DNA from: a virus
Length of the DNA: 30,741 nucleotides
Strand: one strand, 5' to 3'
IMG/VR virus record: IMGVR_UViG_3300017769_000074
Location: 1-30,741 of that record
Part shown: positions 15,050 through 30,741 of the stretch, in pieces
Layout: each line of letters opens with the position of its first letter
How positions within the stretch are numbered: position 1 is the stretch's first letter
Program-made: the position numbers and the translations under genes
Notes under the pieces: model-generated
The model's input: only the letters and a program-made list of their open reading frames with translations
The model's database searches: none
Told to the model about the DNA's origin: nothing

Positions 15050-15069
15050 TATAAAATAATTATACTGCC
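15045..15069 (+). terminator. Hairpin at end of tail operon
   Basis: GGTAGTATAA (15045-15054) pairs with TTATACTGCC (15060-15069), 10 bp with one G-U pair and a 5-nt loop. The TAG stop of the upstream gene is in the stem. A second all-A/T hairpin, AAAAAAG-TTTT-CTTTTTT (15097-15114), follows. Together they look like a transcription stop between late and early operons, although the first stem lacks an immediate U-run. Confidence 0.5.
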
Positions 15070-15116
15070 TTACCCTCGATAAAATAAAAAAAATATAAAA
15101 AAGTTTTCTTTTTTCC

Positions 15117-15166
15117 TTGACTTTAATAATACAAATGTAATAACTTATTGGAGGTTAAGGAAACAA
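15117..15166 (+). promoter_or_regulatory. Early promoter/leader element, copy A
   Basis: TTGACT (15117-15122) is a good -35-like box. AACTTAT (15142-15148), 3 nt, then AGGTTAAGGAAACAA (15152-15166) follow. The same block with the same internal spacing occurs at 24621-24645 upstream of another small gene, also after an A-rich run with ATATAAAA and a TTG box. No perfect -10 box at the standard distance is visible, so the exact promoter architecture is uncertain. It starts the early gene block. Confidence 0.55.
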
Positions 15167-15180
15167 CAAAGGAGATTAAA

Positions 15181-15411
15181 ATGAAGAATAAAAAACAAGA
15201 TAAATTGCCAAGAACATTTGGAGCAGGGCATATAGCTAAAAGAACTAATAAGCAAAGAAGCCCTAGAAAGTATGATATGTGGCAGTTTTTAGCTGATAGA
15301 GGGTTAAGATTTAGTTTATTGGGAGTTTCTGTTGCTACTTTAAAAAAACACTTTGCAGAAAGAGGTGGATTAGAGTGGTGGGAAAAAAAGAATTTAAATA
15401 AACAAGGTTAA
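15181..15411 (+). CDS. Small basic early protein, unknown
   Basis: 76 residues from the ATG at 15181, preceded by AAAGGAGATTAAA. An in-frame TTG at 15148 is rejected because it lies within the conserved leader element. The N-terminal ~40 residues are Lys/Arg-rich (MKNKKQDKLPRTFGAGHIAK), followed by an aromatic-containing helix pair. It is the first gene after the early leader, the typical position for host-takeover or regulatory proteins, but there is no family recognition. Confidence 0.6.
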   Translation: MKNKKQDKLPRTFGAGHIAKRTNKQRSPRKYDMWQFLADRGLRFSLLGVSVATLKKHFAERGGLEWWEKKNLNKQG

Positions 15412-15421
15412 GGAGATTAAA

Positions 15422-15592
15422 GTGAAAAATAAAAAACAATTAAACAAAGTAAGTAAAGAAGAAGCATTAGACGCTTTAGAATATTTTTGGCAAACAGCTA
15501 ATTTAGATGATGAAGGCGATACAATACATTATACTAAAATACTGATGAAAAAAGTTGCTAATGATTATAAGATTAAATTAGAGGGTATATAA
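15422..15592 (+). CDS. Small early protein with GTG start, unknown
   Basis: 56 residues starting at GTG, with the ribosome binding site TTAAGGAGATTAAA placed exactly as in the preceding gene. The first codons (VKNKKQL) nearly repeat the MKNKKQD start of that gene, and the DNA around the two starts is almost identical over ~28 bases, suggesting a local duplication of the translation start. The rest is helical and acidic (SKEEALDALEYFWQTANLDD). Function unknown. Confidence 0.6.
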   Translation: MKNKKQLNKVSKEEALDALEYFWQTANLDDEGDTIHYTKILMKKVANDYKIKLEGI

Positions 15593-15599
15593 ACTTGTT

Positions 15600-15662
15600 T
15601 GGCTCACACAAGGCACTTGACTACAGAAAAACCTATAGGGGTGGAAGAGCAAAAGTGAGCCA
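15600..15662 (+). other. Structured non-coding segment in early region
   Basis: TGGCTCAC (15600-15607) and GTGAGCCA (15655-15662) form a perfect 8-bp stem closing a 47-nt interior that contains the palindrome CCTATAGG (15632-15639). The segment occupies the gap between two small early genes and ends ~12 bases before the AAGGAGAAG ribosome binding site of the next gene. It is too short and lacks T-loop bases for a tRNA. A regulatory RNA element is possible. Confidence 0.4.
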
Positions 15663-15687
15663 CAGAATTTAATTAAGGAGAAGTAAA

Positions 15688-18719: not shown

Positions 18720-18880
18720 TACAATTATGTACAGAATGTGGCAAGCAAAAACTACATAATGAATTTTATAGAATATATGCAGGCTACAGGAGTAAAAAAT
18801 GCAAAGTATGCTATAGTGAAATGAGAAAAGCAGAAAGAAAAGAAAAAGAAAGAAGAAAAAAGGCTGCAAAGTTATGGTAA
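18707..18880 (+). CDS. Small zinc-finger protein
   Basis: 57 residues from the ATG at 18707. It has CTEC (Cys8/Cys11) and CKVC (Cys32/Cys35), a four-Cys zinc site, followed by a long Lys/Arg/Glu-rich helix (SEMRKAERKEKERRKKAAKL). Such small zinc-finger proteins are common in phage replication modules. There is no ribosome binding site; the start is embedded in the RNA structure at 18645-18719, suggesting regulated or coupled translation. It overlaps the methyltransferase gene by seven bases. Confidence 0.6.
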   Translation: MGYSLQLCTECGKQKLHNEFYRIYAGYRSKKCKVCYSEMRKAERKEKERRKKAAKLW

Positions 18881-19764
18881 TCAATGTATTAAGTTTATTT
18901 AATGGAATGTCCACAGGGCATACTGCTCTTGATAATGTAGGTATAAAAGTAGGTAAGTATTATTCTTCTGAAATAAAGCCTGCTGCTATAAAGCTGACTC
19001 AACATCACTATCCTAACACAATACAACTAGGAGATGTAAGTAATTGGAAAAAATGGGATATAGATTGGAAAAGCATTGATATGGTTCTAAGTGGTAGTCC
19101 TTGTCAAGACTTAAGTGCAGCAGGACAACATCAGAAAAGAGATGGATTAAAAGGGTGTAGAAGTAATTTGTTTTTTGTGTTTGTAGATATTTTGAACCAC
19201 ATAAAAGAACTAAATCCTAAAGTATTGTTTTTGCAAGAGAATGTTGGTTCTGCACCTAAAAAAGATGTAGGTATTATGTCAAGAGCATTAGGTGTGTACC
19301 CTGTTAGAATAAATAGCAAATTAGTAACTGCTCAATTAAGAGATAGATACTATTGGAGCAACATAAAAACTGCACCTGATGGAATGTTTGGAGATATTGT
19401 TACAGATATACCTGAGCCTAAAGATAAAAACATTATGTTGCAAGATATACTGCAAAGTGGCACACCTGATAGAGATAAACATTGTTGTCTAATGGAACAT
19501 TATATAAATGCAAATACAACAAAAGATGATAAAATATATGAAAATTTTCAAGAATATATAGTTAATAGACCAAAAGGAATGGTTACATTAATTACAGATA
19601 ATGATAAATATAGATTAGTAAATAAAATAGAAATGTGTAGGCTGCAAGGATTTCCTGATGATTGGTGTGATATATTAAGTTATAGAGATGCAGGTAGTTT
19701 ATTAGGTGATGGTTGGACTTTACCTATAGTAGAACATATATTTAGTTTTTTAAATGAAAGATAA
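18874..19764 (+). CDS. DNA (cytosine-5)-methyltransferase
   Basis: 296 residues. It transfers a methyl group from S-adenosylmethionine to C5 of cytosine in DNA. Motifs are in order: I (NVLSLFNGMSTGHTALDNVG, residues 4-23), IV with the catalytic Cys77 (SGSPCQDLS), VI (ENV, 122-124), VIII (QLRDRYYW, 154-161), IX/RLQGFP-type (MCRLQGFPDDW) and a degenerate motif X near the end (LLGDGWTLPIVEHI). The target-recognition region between VIII and IX is short (~90 residues), so specificity cannot be read. No cognate restriction enzyme is seen, pointing to self-protection or host mimicry. It overlaps the RusA-like gene. Confidence 0.85.
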   Translation: MVINVLSLFNGMSTGHTALDNVGIKVGKYYSSEIKPAAIKLTQHHYPNTIQLGDVSNWKKWDIDWKSIDMVLSGSPCQDLSAAGQHQKRDGLKGCRSNLFFVFVDILNHIKELNPKVLFLQENVGSAPKKDVGIMSRALGVYPVRINSKLVTAQLRDRYYWSNIKTAPDGMFGDIVTDIPEPKDKNIMLQDILQSGTPDRDKHCCLMEHYINANTTKDDKIYENFQEYIVNRPKGMVTLITDNDKYRLVNKIEMCRLQGFPDDWCDILSYRDAGSLLGDGWTLPIVEHIFSFLNER

Positions 19765-23333: not shown

Positions 23334-24065
23334 ATGTCAGACCAACTTTTTATAGAACAAAACTCTGAACTTGTTACAAGTATTTTGTTACAGGTACAGG
23401 AAGAAACTATAGAGCAGCTATACAAACTAAAAGGTCAAAAAACTGCTGAACAATTTTTAATATTTGTACAAGACTTAAATGTAAAAGAAATAATTAGAGC
23501 AAAATCTGCAAATGCAATAAACATATATGATGCTTCACATGGCACTATGTTACAAACTGTTCAAGGTTTTGCAGCAGTATCTGAAGAAACACTCACAGCA
23601 CTAAAAAACTACAGCACAGGCTCACTTTTAAATAAACTTGATGACATGGCACAGATAATCAAAAAAGAGGTTGTAAATGGCATTCTAGCAGGTAATCCTG
23701 TAACAACAGTATTGCAAGCAGTACAAAATCAAGCTGCATTAAGTCCTACACAGTTAAAAACCTTAATTGATACATCTATGAACGAATACAGCAGAAGTGT
23801 TACTAAAGTTATGGTAGATAAGATGCCACAGGAAACAAAATATGTTTATATAGGTGCATTAGATGAGAAAACAAGACCTGAGTGCCTAGAATATATGTCA
23901 GCAGGTGAATTAACTAAAGATGAAATAGAGTCAAGAGGTTGGGGAGATAGCTTTATAAATGGTGGTGGTTATAACTGTAGGCACAAGTGGGAGATTGCTG
24001 TACAAGATAAGTTTGCACATGACCCTGAGGGTGCAAAGAAAATAATAGATAAAAGCAAAAACTAA
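23334..24065 (+). CDS. Minor capsid protein, MuF-like
   Basis: 243 residues from the ATG at 23334; an in-frame GTG at 23316 overlapping the upstream gene is the alternative. The C-terminal region has the MuF pattern: YIGALDEKTRPECLEYM, then 'NGGGYNCRHKWE', i.e. D-x-x-T-R-P-x-C and a second Cys/Arg/His motif. MuF proteins are minor head proteins encoded after the portal and injected or involved in head assembly. The N-terminal half is helical. Confidence 0.75.
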   Translation: MSDQLFIEQNSELVTSILLQVQEETIEQLYKLKGQKTAEQFLIFVQDLNVKEIIRAKSANAINIYDASHGTMLQTVQGFAAVSEETLTALKNYSTGSLLNKLDDMAQIIKKEVVNGILAGNPVTTVLQAVQNQAALSPTQLKTLIDTSMNEYSRSVTKVMVDKMPQETKYVYIGALDEKTRPECLEYMSAGELTKDEIESRGWGDSFINGGGYNCRHKWEIAVQDKFAHDPEGAKKIIDKSKN

Positions 24066-24547
24066 TGGCAGAGAAGGGCAAAAGATTTAAGATACCTACA
24101 CCATTATTTGATAGAGAAGCATTTGAATTGTTTGAAGGGGTTGCAGTAAATGAATACAGAAAGATTACATTTGATAAGTCAAATCCAAGAATGGCTGATG
24201 ATAGACCTTTTCCTAAATATTCAAAAGCATATGAGAAAAGAAAGAAAGCAGGCAAACTTCGCAGGCAAAACTCAAGCTATGCTAATTCAACAGCACCATA
24301 TGTAGTAGGTGACCTAGCTAATGATACTAATTCTAGCTTTGATGCAAAAAAAGACTCTATATATATAAATTGGTCATCTCATGGTTACAAGCTACAGCAT
24401 TTAAGAAACAATGGCAGAATATTAACTAGCAGGCAGCACCCTATCAATCCAAAGGTTATAAAAAAACTAATGCCTAACTTCAACAAAGAACTCAAAAGAA
24501 TAATGCCTAAGGGCAAACACACCATAACTATTGGTAAGAAAAGATAA
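24065..24547 (+). CDS. Putative virion morphogenesis protein
   Basis: 160 residues, start overlapping the MuF-like stop (TAATG). It is basic, with 'MADDRPFPKYSKAYEKRKKA' in the middle and a 'QHPINPKVIKKLMPNFNKEL' segment, resembling small neck or virion morphogenesis proteins that lie after MuF genes. No catalytic motif. It is the last gene before the conserved leader copy B. Confidence 0.5.
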   Translation: MAEKGKRFKIPTPLFDREAFELFEGVAVNEYRKITFDKSNPRMADDRPFPKYSKAYEKRKKAGKLRRQNSSYANSTAPYVVGDLANDTNSSFDAKKDSIYINWSSHGYKLQHLRNNGRILTSRQHPINPKVIKKLMPNFNKELKRIMPKGKHTITIGKKR

Positions 24548-24596
24548 TAGTTATATTTATTTCTCCTTAATAAAACAAAAAAAAATATAAAAATGC

Positions 24597-24645
24597 TTGC
24601 TTCGTAAAATTAAAAGTGCGAACTTATGACAGGTTAAGGAAACAA
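24597..24645 (+). promoter_or_regulatory. Early-type promoter/leader element, copy B
   Basis: TTGCTT (24597-24602), then AACTTAT (24621-24627), 3 nt, AGGTTAAGGAAACAA (24631-24645). The block matches copy A at 15142-15166 with identical spacing and is preceded by the same A-rich ATATAAAA run. It lies in a 115-base gap upstream of an isolated small gene whose 3' end carries a strong terminator. Confidence 0.55.
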
Positions 24646-24662
24646 ACAAACAGGAGATTAAA

Positions 24663-24974
24663 ATGAAAACTACATTAAAATTAGATAAAATAGAAAAAAG
24701 TGGAAGTGGTGTAAAATTTGCCCACATTATGGTAACTATTGATACATCAGAAGAAAAAAATGGATTTGCTAAAGCACATTGGGATTTAATATGTACCTCA
24801 ATGGCTACAAGAATTAAGGGCAATCATCATATTAATAGTTTAAAATGGTTTCTTGAAGTATTAGAAAAAGAAACTAAAACAAGTGTTTCGTTAGAATCAA
24901 GAATAAGAGTATTTGCTAAAAAAGTAATAGATGCAGACGATTTGATGGATAAAACACAAGACATAACAATATAA
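24663..24974 (+). CDS. Isolated small gene with its own leader and terminator (moron-like), unknown
   Basis: 103 residues, start after CAGGAGATTAAA. The product has a beta-rich N-terminus (KTTLKLDKIEKSGSGVKFAH, then IMVTID) and helical C-terminus (SLKWFLEVLEKETKTSVSLE ... RVFAKKVIDADDLMD). It interrupts the head gene cluster between a morphogenesis candidate and scaffold. A promoter/leader identical in design to the early one precedes it, and an intrinsic terminator follows. It would thus be expressed early and independently. Function unknown; accessory role such as host modulation is inference. Confidence 0.65.
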   Translation: MKTTLKLDKIEKSGSGVKFAHIMVTIDTSEEKNGFAKAHWDLICTSMATRIKGNHHINSLKWFLEVLEKETKTSVSLESRIRVFAKKVIDADDLMDKTQDITI

Positions 24975-24994
24975 ATCCTACTAAAATAGCAAAG

Positions 24995-25031
24995 AAAAGC
25001 CCTGAGTGTAATGCTTGGGGTTTTTTGTTTT
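24995..25031 (+). terminator. Intrinsic terminator after isolated gene
   Basis: AAAAGCCCTGAG (24995-25006) pairs with CTTGGGGTTTT (25014-25024) around a 7-nt loop, including three consecutive C-G pairs and some G-U pairs, and is followed by a T-rich stretch (TTTTTTGTTTT in total). This is the most convincing Rho-independent terminator of the window. Confidence 0.75.
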
Positions 25032-25043
25032 AAAAATAAATAT

Positions 25044-25072
25044 TTGTTGTAATTGTTTTTTATTTATATTAT
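25044..25072 (+). promoter_or_regulatory. Promoter candidate for scaffold/capsid operon
   Basis: TTGTTG (25044-25049), 17 nt, TATTAT (25067-25072). It lies directly after the terminator and 39 bases before the scaffold ATG, where a new transcript would be needed for the highly expressed capsid gene. The region is very AT-rich, so chance matches are possible. Confidence 0.45.
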
Positions 25073-25111
25073 AAAGATAGTTTAATAACTAATACTCACA
25101 AAAGAGGTAAA

Positions 25112-25687
25112 ATGTCAGAAGATAACACAACTCAAACTGAAGCAAATCAGGCACAACAACCTAGCACAGAAGCTAGTAAAAACAATGTATCAGATGGTAT
25201 TCCTAAGTCAAGATTTGATGAGGTTAATAATCAGAAAAATGATTATAAGACTCAAGTAGAAGAACTACAGGCTCAACTTGACAAACATAAAGCAAATCAA
25301 GAAGCAACTCGCAAAGCAAAGCTAGAAAAAGAAGGTGAGTACAAGACACTTCTTGAAGAAACTAATGTTAAACTAGAAGCAGCACAAGCTGACTCTAAAG
25401 CATGGGGTGAATATAAAACTAATAAAAGAAACACTCTCATGGAGCAAATAACTGAAGATTCAGACAAATCTATAGCTGAAAGCTTACCATTGGAAAAATT
25501 GGAGTTGTATGTAAGTAAACTTAACAAAGGAAGTAGTTTACCCACTAACAATGCAAGAGCAGCAAGTCAAGCACCACAAGGTAATTTTGGTGGCTATGAT
25601 TCTATTGTAGAATTTGCTTCAAAAGACCCAAAAGGTGCAGAAAAATACTTAGCTGAAAATGTGCAAGGTTATAAGTGGGGTAAATAA
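25112..25687 (+). CDS. Capsid scaffolding protein
   Basis: 191 residues, start after AAGAGGTAAA. It has the usual scaffold layout: low-complexity Gln/Thr/Ala-rich N-terminus, a coiled coil around residues 40-95 (YKTQVEELQAQLDKHKANQE ... GEYKTLLEETNVKLEAAQAD) and a Gly/Ser/basic C-terminal end that probably binds the capsid protein (YLAENVQGYKWGK). It is encoded immediately upstream of the major capsid protein. There is no protease motif. Confidence 0.8.
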   Translation: MSEDNTTQTEANQAQQPSTEASKNNVSDGIPKSRFDEVNNQKNDYKTQVEELQAQLDKHKANQEATRKAKLEKEGEYKTLLEETNVKLEAAQADSKAWGEYKTNKRNTLMEQITEDSDKSIAESLPLEKLELYVSKLNKGSSLPTNNARAASQAPQGNFGGYDSIVEFASKDPKGAEKYLAENVQGYKWGK

Positions 25688-25720: not shown

Positions 25721-26647
25721 ATGGCTCAAACTAGTAACGTAAGTGATGTTGGTGTAAGTGCAGGTGGATTAGGTGTAGCTATTGCAGCAGCGATAGTGCA
25801 ACTTAATAAAGCAGCAGTCACACCACAATGTATAACAATGGTTTCTGCACCACAAGGTACAAACACAGTTAAATTCCCACTATATACAAAGCATGATGTA
25901 ACTAATGCTAATTATGGTGTAAAGAATATGGCTTCAGGAGCAGAAGAAACTGATGCTAACTTAACATCTATAGAAACTACTGCTGTTAGCTTAGAAGTCT
26001 TAAGAAATGCTATTAGAGCAGAAATTAGTGACTTAGCAGCATATGGTAACGAAGATGCTTTAATGGTAAATGCAGGAACTCAATTAGGTAATGATATTGC
26101 AAAAGAATTTGACCTAAATGTATGTGCTTTATTTGATGGGTTTGCTACAAGTAAAGGCACATCAACACATGGTTTAAAATTTGTTGATATTATGGATGCA
26201 TTAGCTTCACTAGAAGCAAATGATGCTCCAAGACCTTATCATGCAGTACTACACCCACAGCAAATGTATGGCTCATTTGGTTTGTCAAATGAATTTGGCT
26301 CATCAACATTAAATGAAAGTAATGCTTCATTTAATGGTATTGGCAGCACAGGTGGTGTTGGTGAACAGTTTTTAGGTGCAGGATTTGTTACTTCTTTAGC
26401 AGGTATCAATATCTACACCTCAACATCAGTACCTGATGGTGGTGATGCAACAGAGAAGAAGGGTGCAATCTTTTCATCTACTGCTATTGGTTGTGGATAT
26501 ATTGACCAAGGTGGTGGTAACTTTGTGCAAATGGCTCAGGAAAGAGAAGAGAAGAGTGCAAAGACTATCATGGTTGCAAATGCTTACTATGCTGTATCAG
26601 AACTTGTAGACCTACATGGTGTAGAAATACATACTGAAATATCATAA
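25721..26647 (+). CDS. Major capsid protein
   Basis: 308 residues, start after TTAGGAGAAAAAAA, a strong ribosome binding site. It follows scaffold and has the expected length and composition for an HK97-fold capsid subunit without a large N-terminal delta domain. Recognisable segments include an N-arm ('GGLGVAIAAAIVQLNKAAVT'), a central 'AAYGNEDALMVNAGTQLGND' helix and 'PYHAVLHPQQMYGSFG'. A 9-bp hairpin follows the gene. Family is assigned by synteny and general pattern. Confidence 0.75.
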   Translation: MAQTSNVSDVGVSAGGLGVAIAAAIVQLNKAAVTPQCITMVSAPQGTNTVKFPLYTKHDVTNANYGVKNMASGAEETDANLTSIETTAVSLEVLRNAIRAEISDLAAYGNEDALMVNAGTQLGNDIAKEFDLNVCALFDGFATSKGTSTHGLKFVDIMDALASLEANDAPRPYHAVLHPQQMYGSFGLSNEFGSSTLNESNASFNGIGSTGGVGEQFLGAGFVTSLAGINIYTSTSVPDGGDATEKKGAIFSSTAIGCGYIDQGGGNFVQMAQEREEKSAKTIMVANAYYAVSELVDLHGVEIHTEIS

Positions 26648-29826: not shown

Positions 29827-30482
29827 TGAGCAAAAAAGTAACATTAGAAAACTCACTAGACACACACCTTAAACCACTTAAGGTAGATGATGACACTTTG
29901 CCTATAGAGGTATCTAAAGATGATATAAGAATTTCTCAATCATTAGATGTTAATGGAGATTTAAATGCTAAAGGTAATATAAATTTACAAGGCAACAGTA
30001 TAAACTTTGAAAATAATTCAACTATTAATGCTTCAACGACTGAAGGCAGATTATCTTTTTTACTTAATGATATTGAAATAAAAGATATTAATGCTTCTCC
30101 AAGAATTTTTATGGTAACTACAGCAGGAAATGACCCACACATTGTTTTATACCAAGGTGGCTCAAGTATTAAAACATTAGCTATGACAGGTGATGATAGT
30201 GGTACATTTATGATAGGTAATGGTCAAGATAATAGTTTGCCTATATGGACTATACAAAATGATGGCAATGTAAATCAAGATGGTACATTGAAAATAAAAG
30301 AAACTGCTTCTGCTGTAGCAGATACAGCAGCTTATGGTCAGGTTTGGGTAAAAAGTGATACACCTAATAATTTATACTTTACAAATGATGCAGGTAATGA
30401 TGTACAGATAACTAATGGTGCATCTTTAGCAGGTGGTAGTTCAGGATTAAATCCTATAATAGCAAGTATGATTTTTGGTTAA
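29826..30482 (+). CDS. Tail fibre / appendage protein (complete copy)
   Basis: 218 residues, GTG start overlapping the upstream stop (TAGTG). It has a repetitive N-terminal shaft (LDVNGDLNAKGNINLQGNSI), a middle beta region and a C-terminal domain that matches the truncated gene at the left window edge (ADTAAYGQVWVKSDTPNNLY). The repeat of Gly/Asn-rich beta turns is typical of trimeric fibre shafts. It begins the fibre block, which in a circular genome continues at position 1. Confidence 0.7.
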   Translation: MSKKVTLENSLDTHLKPLKVDDDTLPIEVSKDDIRISQSLDVNGDLNAKGNINLQGNSINFENNSTINASTTEGRLSFLLNDIEIKDINASPRIFMVTTAGNDPHIVLYQGGSSIKTLAMTGDDSGTFMIGNGQDNSLPIWTIQNDGNVNQDGTLKIKETASAVADTAAYGQVWVKSDTPNNLYFTNDAGNDVQITNGASLAGGSSGLNPIIASMIFG

Positions 30483-30741
30483 GGAGAATAAATGTCAGCA
30501 CCAAATTTAACAAATATATCGACAATAACAGCAAAGTCTGCAATAATTACGATTGATAATATTGGAGTAACTATTTTAAATAATCCTGCTTCTTCTAATA
30601 AAGTATTTAAAGTATCTAGTCTTATAATTTCAAATATAGATGGCTCTAGTGCAGCAGATTTTACATTAAGAGTAGCAAAAGCAGGTGGTGCATCTTTTAA
30701 TATGTTTCAGACAGTAAGTGTCCCTGCTGATTCAGTTTTAA
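30262..30741. repeat. Right copy of diverged terminal repeat
   Basis: Aligns with 1 to ~474 as described for the left copy. Within it the fibre C-terminus has one 6-base insertion (adding two residues in the LAGGSSGLNP segment), and the next gene's early part (about codons 15-35) differs strongly while its later part is conserved. Confidence 0.85.
30492..30741 (+). CDS. Small fibre-associated structural protein, 3'-truncated by window edge
   Basis: Start after GGTTAAGGAGAATAA. 83 codons are visible. The protein begins MSAPNLTNISTITAKSA and contains FKVSSLIISNIDGSSAADFT, matching the complete 120-residue protein at 225-587. Residues ~17-30 are different in the two copies. It is either the same gene from a variant genome or a paralogue in a tandem cassette. 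Confidence 0.75.
   Translation, partial: MSAPNLTNISTITAKSAIITIDNIGVTILNNPASSNKVFKVSSLIISNIDGSSAADFTLRVAKAGGASFNMFQTVSVPADSVL

Follow-up and report, generated by a model that had tools for sequence, protein, structure and literature searches.

What is a gene for a 103-aa protein doing between two head genes of a small marine phage? We addressed this question in a single virus record, IMGVR_UViG_3300017769_000074, the whole of which (30741 nt) is referred to here as the window. The two ends of the record (1-473 and 30262-30740) match one another at 83-97% identity, as though the contig ran on beyond one ~30.27-kb unit, with differences between strains. A preliminary description of this DNA had placed the gene (24663-24974, hereafter the M103 gene) between a morphogenesis candidate and the scaffold gene, and had proposed that it is a moron with a promoter/leader and a terminator of its own. 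The ORF and both flanking genes are present in the window, arranged as follows (relatives are named by our G and L numbers):

15061..15180, + strand: early operon leader, related to the M103 leader
15181..15592, + strand: early accessory slot with two small orphan genes; the same slot holds an M103 homolog in G052
24065..24547, + strand: g160, a 160-aa head morphogenesis candidate and the left flank; immediately 5' of the scaffold gene in relatives
24548..24662, + strand: leader of the accessory unit, resembling the phage's own early leader, the early leaders of G021, G031, G051 and G052, and the head-slot leader of G052
Within this leader, + strand: promoter-like block (24558-24603), shared AACTTAT...GGTTAAGG block, ribosome-binding site AGGAGATTAAA
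24663..24974, + strand: M103 gene, an ORF for a 103-aa accessory protein with a 101-aa homolog in the G052/L136 early slot
24975..25031, + strand: 3' end of the unit with an intrinsic terminator, identified by fold and rank and near-identical to the terminator of the G052 unit
24996-25024, + strand: terminator hairpin, with a T-tract to ~25030
25032..25111, + strand: intergenic region older than the insert, found in insert-free relatives, with the promoter-like TATATTATA and TACTCACAAAAGAGGT leader of the scaffold/capsid genes
25112..25687, + strand: scaffold protein candidate and the right flank, assigned by its position before the major capsid protein and kept in relatives

The M103 ORF starts with ATG and has AGGAG upstream. 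The scaffold candidate also has a weak match to Pfam Phage_scaffold (E 0.005, under the curated cut-off), and the next gene after it encodes the major capsid protein (MCP).

The M103 unit is an insert at a site that is empty in almost all relatives

A search with the capsid protein yielded 64 loci. With copies of this phage left out, both the pre-scaffold gene and the scaffold gene were readable in 47 of them (a few contigs may stem from the same phage), and in 47/47 of these comparable loci the g160-scaffold gap is 16-90 nt long and contains no gene. They include the closest relative, L022 (protein identity 92% for g160 and 84% for the scaffold), which has a clean empty site with intact flanks, reading ...GGTAAGAAAAAATAAATATTTGTTG... 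where the window reads ...GGTAAGAAAAGATAATAG-unit-TTTTAAAAATAAATATTTGTTG.... The edges of the insert thus defined lie at ~24540-25031 (488-491 nt), almost exactly the 24548-25031 proposed earlier. Inside them are a leader, the ORF for M103 and the terminator that ranks highest on the + strand. The relatives were also inspected for M103 as a conserved core head gene, an outcome named beforehand as fatal to the moron reading, and did not show it. One contig, L002, stops where the insert has its right-hand edge (L002 7400-7408), with last bases that differ from the window and may reflect mixed alleles in that sample.

The group of L006-L014 and L065 has a rearranged head region (L007 inspected) and was left out of this comparison. 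We also observed exchange of the capsid gene (window 25721-26647; L006-L014 and L065; L145 5042-5944): some contigs encode a capsid protein 78-82% identical and yet lack g160 and its upstream neighbours, L007 carries its terminase on the opposite strand, and in G052 the flanks are similar, but the capsid protein is just 28% identical. Elsewhere in the window, a C5 cytosine DNA methylase gene (18874-19764) was not detected in L022, G021, G031, G018 or G052 and is a candidate for another accessory gene.

The insert is bounded by a short imperfect A-rich direct repeat, AAAAGATAA / AAAAATAA, although such repeats are too common in this AT-rich genome for this one to prove a mechanism. It is the feature that a strict mobile element, either transposon-like or driven by a homing endonuclease, could have left on bringing the gene in. 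We consider such an origin highly improbable, as the 490-nt unit encodes no transposase, integrase or endonuclease and has no family match.

The unit carries an early-type leader and the strongest predicted + strand terminator

The M103 leader and the early leader of the same phage (15079-15180) have two blocks in common, of 42 nt at 86% and 33 nt at 85% identity. Their local alignment score is 60, compared with a mean of 22 for dinucleotide shuffles (n=1000), and 0/1000 shuffles scored as high. Scores against the early leaders of L093, G021 and G031 likewise exceeded 1000/1000 shuffles. The scores against the G021 early leader (65) and against a second leader, in the head region of G052 (68), are both slightly higher than that against the phage's own early leader, and blastn aligned the full M103 leader to the G021 early leader (72% identity, E 7.5e-11). 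No leader of this type was found at the empty site of L022 by sequence comparison. The preliminary description had called the M103 leader a copy of the early operon leader; the relationship is far beyond chance, but it is that of a diverged relative rather than an exact copy. Its proposal that the unit has its own promoter/leader holds for the leader, which is homologous to those of early operons, whereas the promoter part is a conserved AT-rich block without a clear sigma-70 match.

In G021, G031, L093 and L136 the early-type leader directly follows the last structural gene and directly precedes the small gene that opens the early region. The first early gene is different in each of the window, L093, G021, G031 and G052. 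We also noticed an 11-nt match, TAAATCCTACT, 3' of the stop codons of the M103 gene and of the first early gene of G021; we discarded it as evidence because its 10-nt core occurs elsewhere in the relatives.

Just 3' of the early accessory slot of the window lies a separate conserved intergenic element (15594-15665), likely an H-type pseudoknot in which CTTGT pairs with ACAAG and the loop GGCTCAC with a downstream GTGAGCC. It is also present in G021, G052, G051 and L137, and in G031 the second helix reads GGTGCAT / ATGCACC, with three pairs altered on both sides. In an alignment of six rows, 72/72 cells were paired, compared with 19-47% in slid versions, and the covariation score was reached by 0/500 shuffles. 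Two of the six rows are wrapped ends of a single contig, which leaves five phage records, and the compensatory changes may therefore represent one evolutionary episode. The element matched no Rfam family.

At the other end of the unit, the terminator (24996-25030; AAAGAAAARCCCTGAGTGTAA) folds as RNA at -16.1 kcal/mol (z -3.2). Among + strand hairpins of the window that are followed by a T-run it is the most stable (computed -13.6, against -9.4 for the runner-up), which bears out, for the + strand, the earlier view that it is the best intrinsic terminator of the window; a simple terminator scanner did not list it. The capsid genes downstream had been credited with a new promoter candidate. An AT-rich, promoter-like stretch does precede the scaffold gene, but it is not new: the region with TATATTATA and TACTCACAAAAGAGGT is present in insert-free relatives, and the scaffold/capsid genes therefore retain an older promoter region.

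A distant relative carries another gene in the same frame

G052 (IMGVR_UViG_3300030060_001342) is a distant relative whose terminase and portal proteins are 70% and 73% identical to those of the window. Between its g160 and scaffold genes lie a related leader, a 105-aa gene and a near-identical terminator. The 105-aa cargo gene is unrelated to M103. The window and G052 each have a single copy of the terminator motif, which was found nowhere else in the sequence compared.

The early operon of G052 supplied the second link. Reading the early operon of L136 revealed that G052 has, as its first early gene and behind a leader of the same type, a gene for a 101-aa protein homologous to M103, with 30% identity over nearly the full length (pairwise BLASTP E 8e-13; phmmer E 9e-9 to 3e-8 among 9925 ORFs). 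One frame has therefore been reused with different cargo at one site, and one cargo family occurs in both early and head slots. Together, the same-site unit and the early-slot homolog in G052 point to a recurrent slot for cassettes, with cargo traded between it and the early accessory slot, although the slot rests on two cases, as only two distinct filled units (window and G052) are known.

The position of the homolog bears on whether M103 is instead a dispensable head or assembly accessory protein, such as a regulator of scaffold or capsid assembly. The M103 gene does lie within the head gene cluster, on the same strand; in G052, however, the homolog is encoded in the early operon, separate from the head genes. 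M103 is also absent from 47 relatives with similar scaffold genes, and its leader is of the early type, all of which makes a head role quite unlikely.

The two filled slots imply at least two changes

On a tree built from terminase and portal, the window and G052 fall in one well-supported clade of eight rows, in which the other four lineages (L022; G031; G018; G021 with G023) have empty sites. The filled slots do not form one clade, and at least two changes are required. On this tree, two gains, or a transfer between the window and G052 lineages, are more economical than one gain followed by at least four losses. A leader score of 68 and an almost unchanged terminator, beside g160 genes that are only 71% identical in DNA, fit either transfer or strong constraint.

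The slot might alternatively be ancestral to the clade and have been deleted precisely in most lineages, in which case the window and G052 would have kept the unit and not recently acquired it. Two distant members do agree in position, leader start and terminator, and the A-rich repeats at both edges would permit deletion. At least four losses would then be required, where two gains or a single transfer would otherwise suffice, and the two terminators resemble each other far more than the flanking genes do, a pattern in favour of transfer or strong constraint. We regard an ancestral slot as unlikely, though it deserves to be kept in mind; it differs from our preferred explanation in history alone and not in how the unit works.

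M103 matched no known family

Searches with the single M103 protein (viral contigs, genome contigs, phage records, PDB sequences, Pfam, PHROGs, NCBIfam and PADLOC) recovered copies in only two contigs, which are 99.6 to 99.96% identical to the window. There was no match in Pfam (E up to 10), NCBIfam or PADLOC (which covers defence but has no counter-defence families), and PHROG matches were insignificant, in line with the initial impression that the product lies outside known families. Alignment-based scans found no further homologs; the 101-aa G052 homolog came to light only through the reading of the L136 early operon. The structure prediction suggested at the outset yielded no confident fold. 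The model from one sequence was poor (pLDDT 51.8) and that from two sequences modest (pLDDT 63.6), the latter suggesting four strands, two helices and a final strand. Foldseek and VIA-align of the models gave nothing above background; OB-fold, CdiI-like and AcrF10-like matches (Z 4.8 for AcrF10, within background) were set aside on these grounds.

Phage genes for host takeover or counter-defence are typically small, exchangeable, narrowly distributed and placed behind early-type leaders. The M103 family has these traits, with early-type leaders in both phages, and may belong to this class. Action on the host early in infection, by takeover or counter-defence, is for us the leading candidate function, at roughly even odds. 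A function as a single-stranded-DNA-binding protein (SSB) or replication accessory factor, not directed at the host, appears improbable: several SSB/PriB chains and one DUF669 protein are among the weak Foldseek matches, but every one of these has E > 0.04 and comes from a low-confidence model, and M103 has no Pfam match at E up to 10.

A proposed moron-type cassette in a recurrent slot

We propose, with a probability of about 0.75, that this unit is an accessory cassette of the moron type, occupying a recurrent g160/scaffold slot, with a reused frame and a gene family that G052 carries in its early operon. The empty site in L022, the absence at 47 comparable loci and the early-slot homolog in G052 all support the original moron reading. 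A frame consisting of an early-type leader 5' and a strong terminator 3' is re-employed with different genes at the slot. It would probably spread by recombination via the shared leader, with the other end formed via the terminator or short A-rich matches, and such recombination could move whole units among phages and single genes among early and head slots. The putative M103 promoter is probably active early, as suggested by the leader homology and the early position of the G052 homolog, so that transcription of the unit would begin at this early-type promoter shortly after infection. The terminator would insulate the unit from the head genes, which would keep their older promoter.

More tentatively, this lineage may keep two linked plug-in slots, one early and one in the late head region, that share leaders and trade accessory genes by recombination, with the M103 family as a new class of host-takeover or counter-defence proteins. 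If so, early counter-host genes would be carried within, and expressed from, the late region. The swap picture, with its empty site, same-site replacement and early-slot homolog behind it, illustrates how accessory genes might be gained and swapped by small marine phages that use no dedicated mobile element. The common leader and terminator also provide a signature by which more cargo genes can be sought, and these would be candidates for unknown early host-takeover or counter-defence proteins.

Comparison with known systems

Morons are recently acquired single genes, often with their own promoter and terminator (PMC2147016). Like them, M103 is an extra gene between genes that are adjacent in relatives, in a unit that has its own leader and computationally identified terminator and is predicted from its layout to be transcriptionally isolated. 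The composition of the unit also departs from that of its neighbours, with a GC content of 27.6% compared with 34.2% for g160, 35.2% for the scaffold gene and 37.3% for the MCP gene, which is a weak criterion because 27.6% falls within the range of this phage's other genes. Unlike in morons, the frame shares homology with the early leader of the phage itself and serves different genes at a single site, and the gene family is found in the early operon as well. The capsid protein is 27-34% similar to those of four pelagiphages and phage DSL-LC06, and this similarity makes SAR11 a possible host; a search of our paper library for morons in pelagiphages found none.

Promoter early stem-loops (PeSLs) are reported to mediate the shuffling of genes between T4-like phages (PMC4503421). 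The PeSL cassettes of T4-type phages resemble the M103 unit in that an early promoter (putative in our case) and a stem-loop terminator frame orphan genes, apparently permitting shuffling. In contrast to these cassettes, the M103 unit is housed in a small (~30 kb) phage outside the T4 group, in a fixed slot among head genes rather than a dense array. Instead of many motif copies per genome, the window and G052 have one head-slot unit each.

Phage early operons have hypervariable first-gene slots. The early slot described here is of this kind, as the small orphan genes behind its conserved leader differ from relative to relative; what sets this lineage apart is that the late head cluster apparently holds another such slot.
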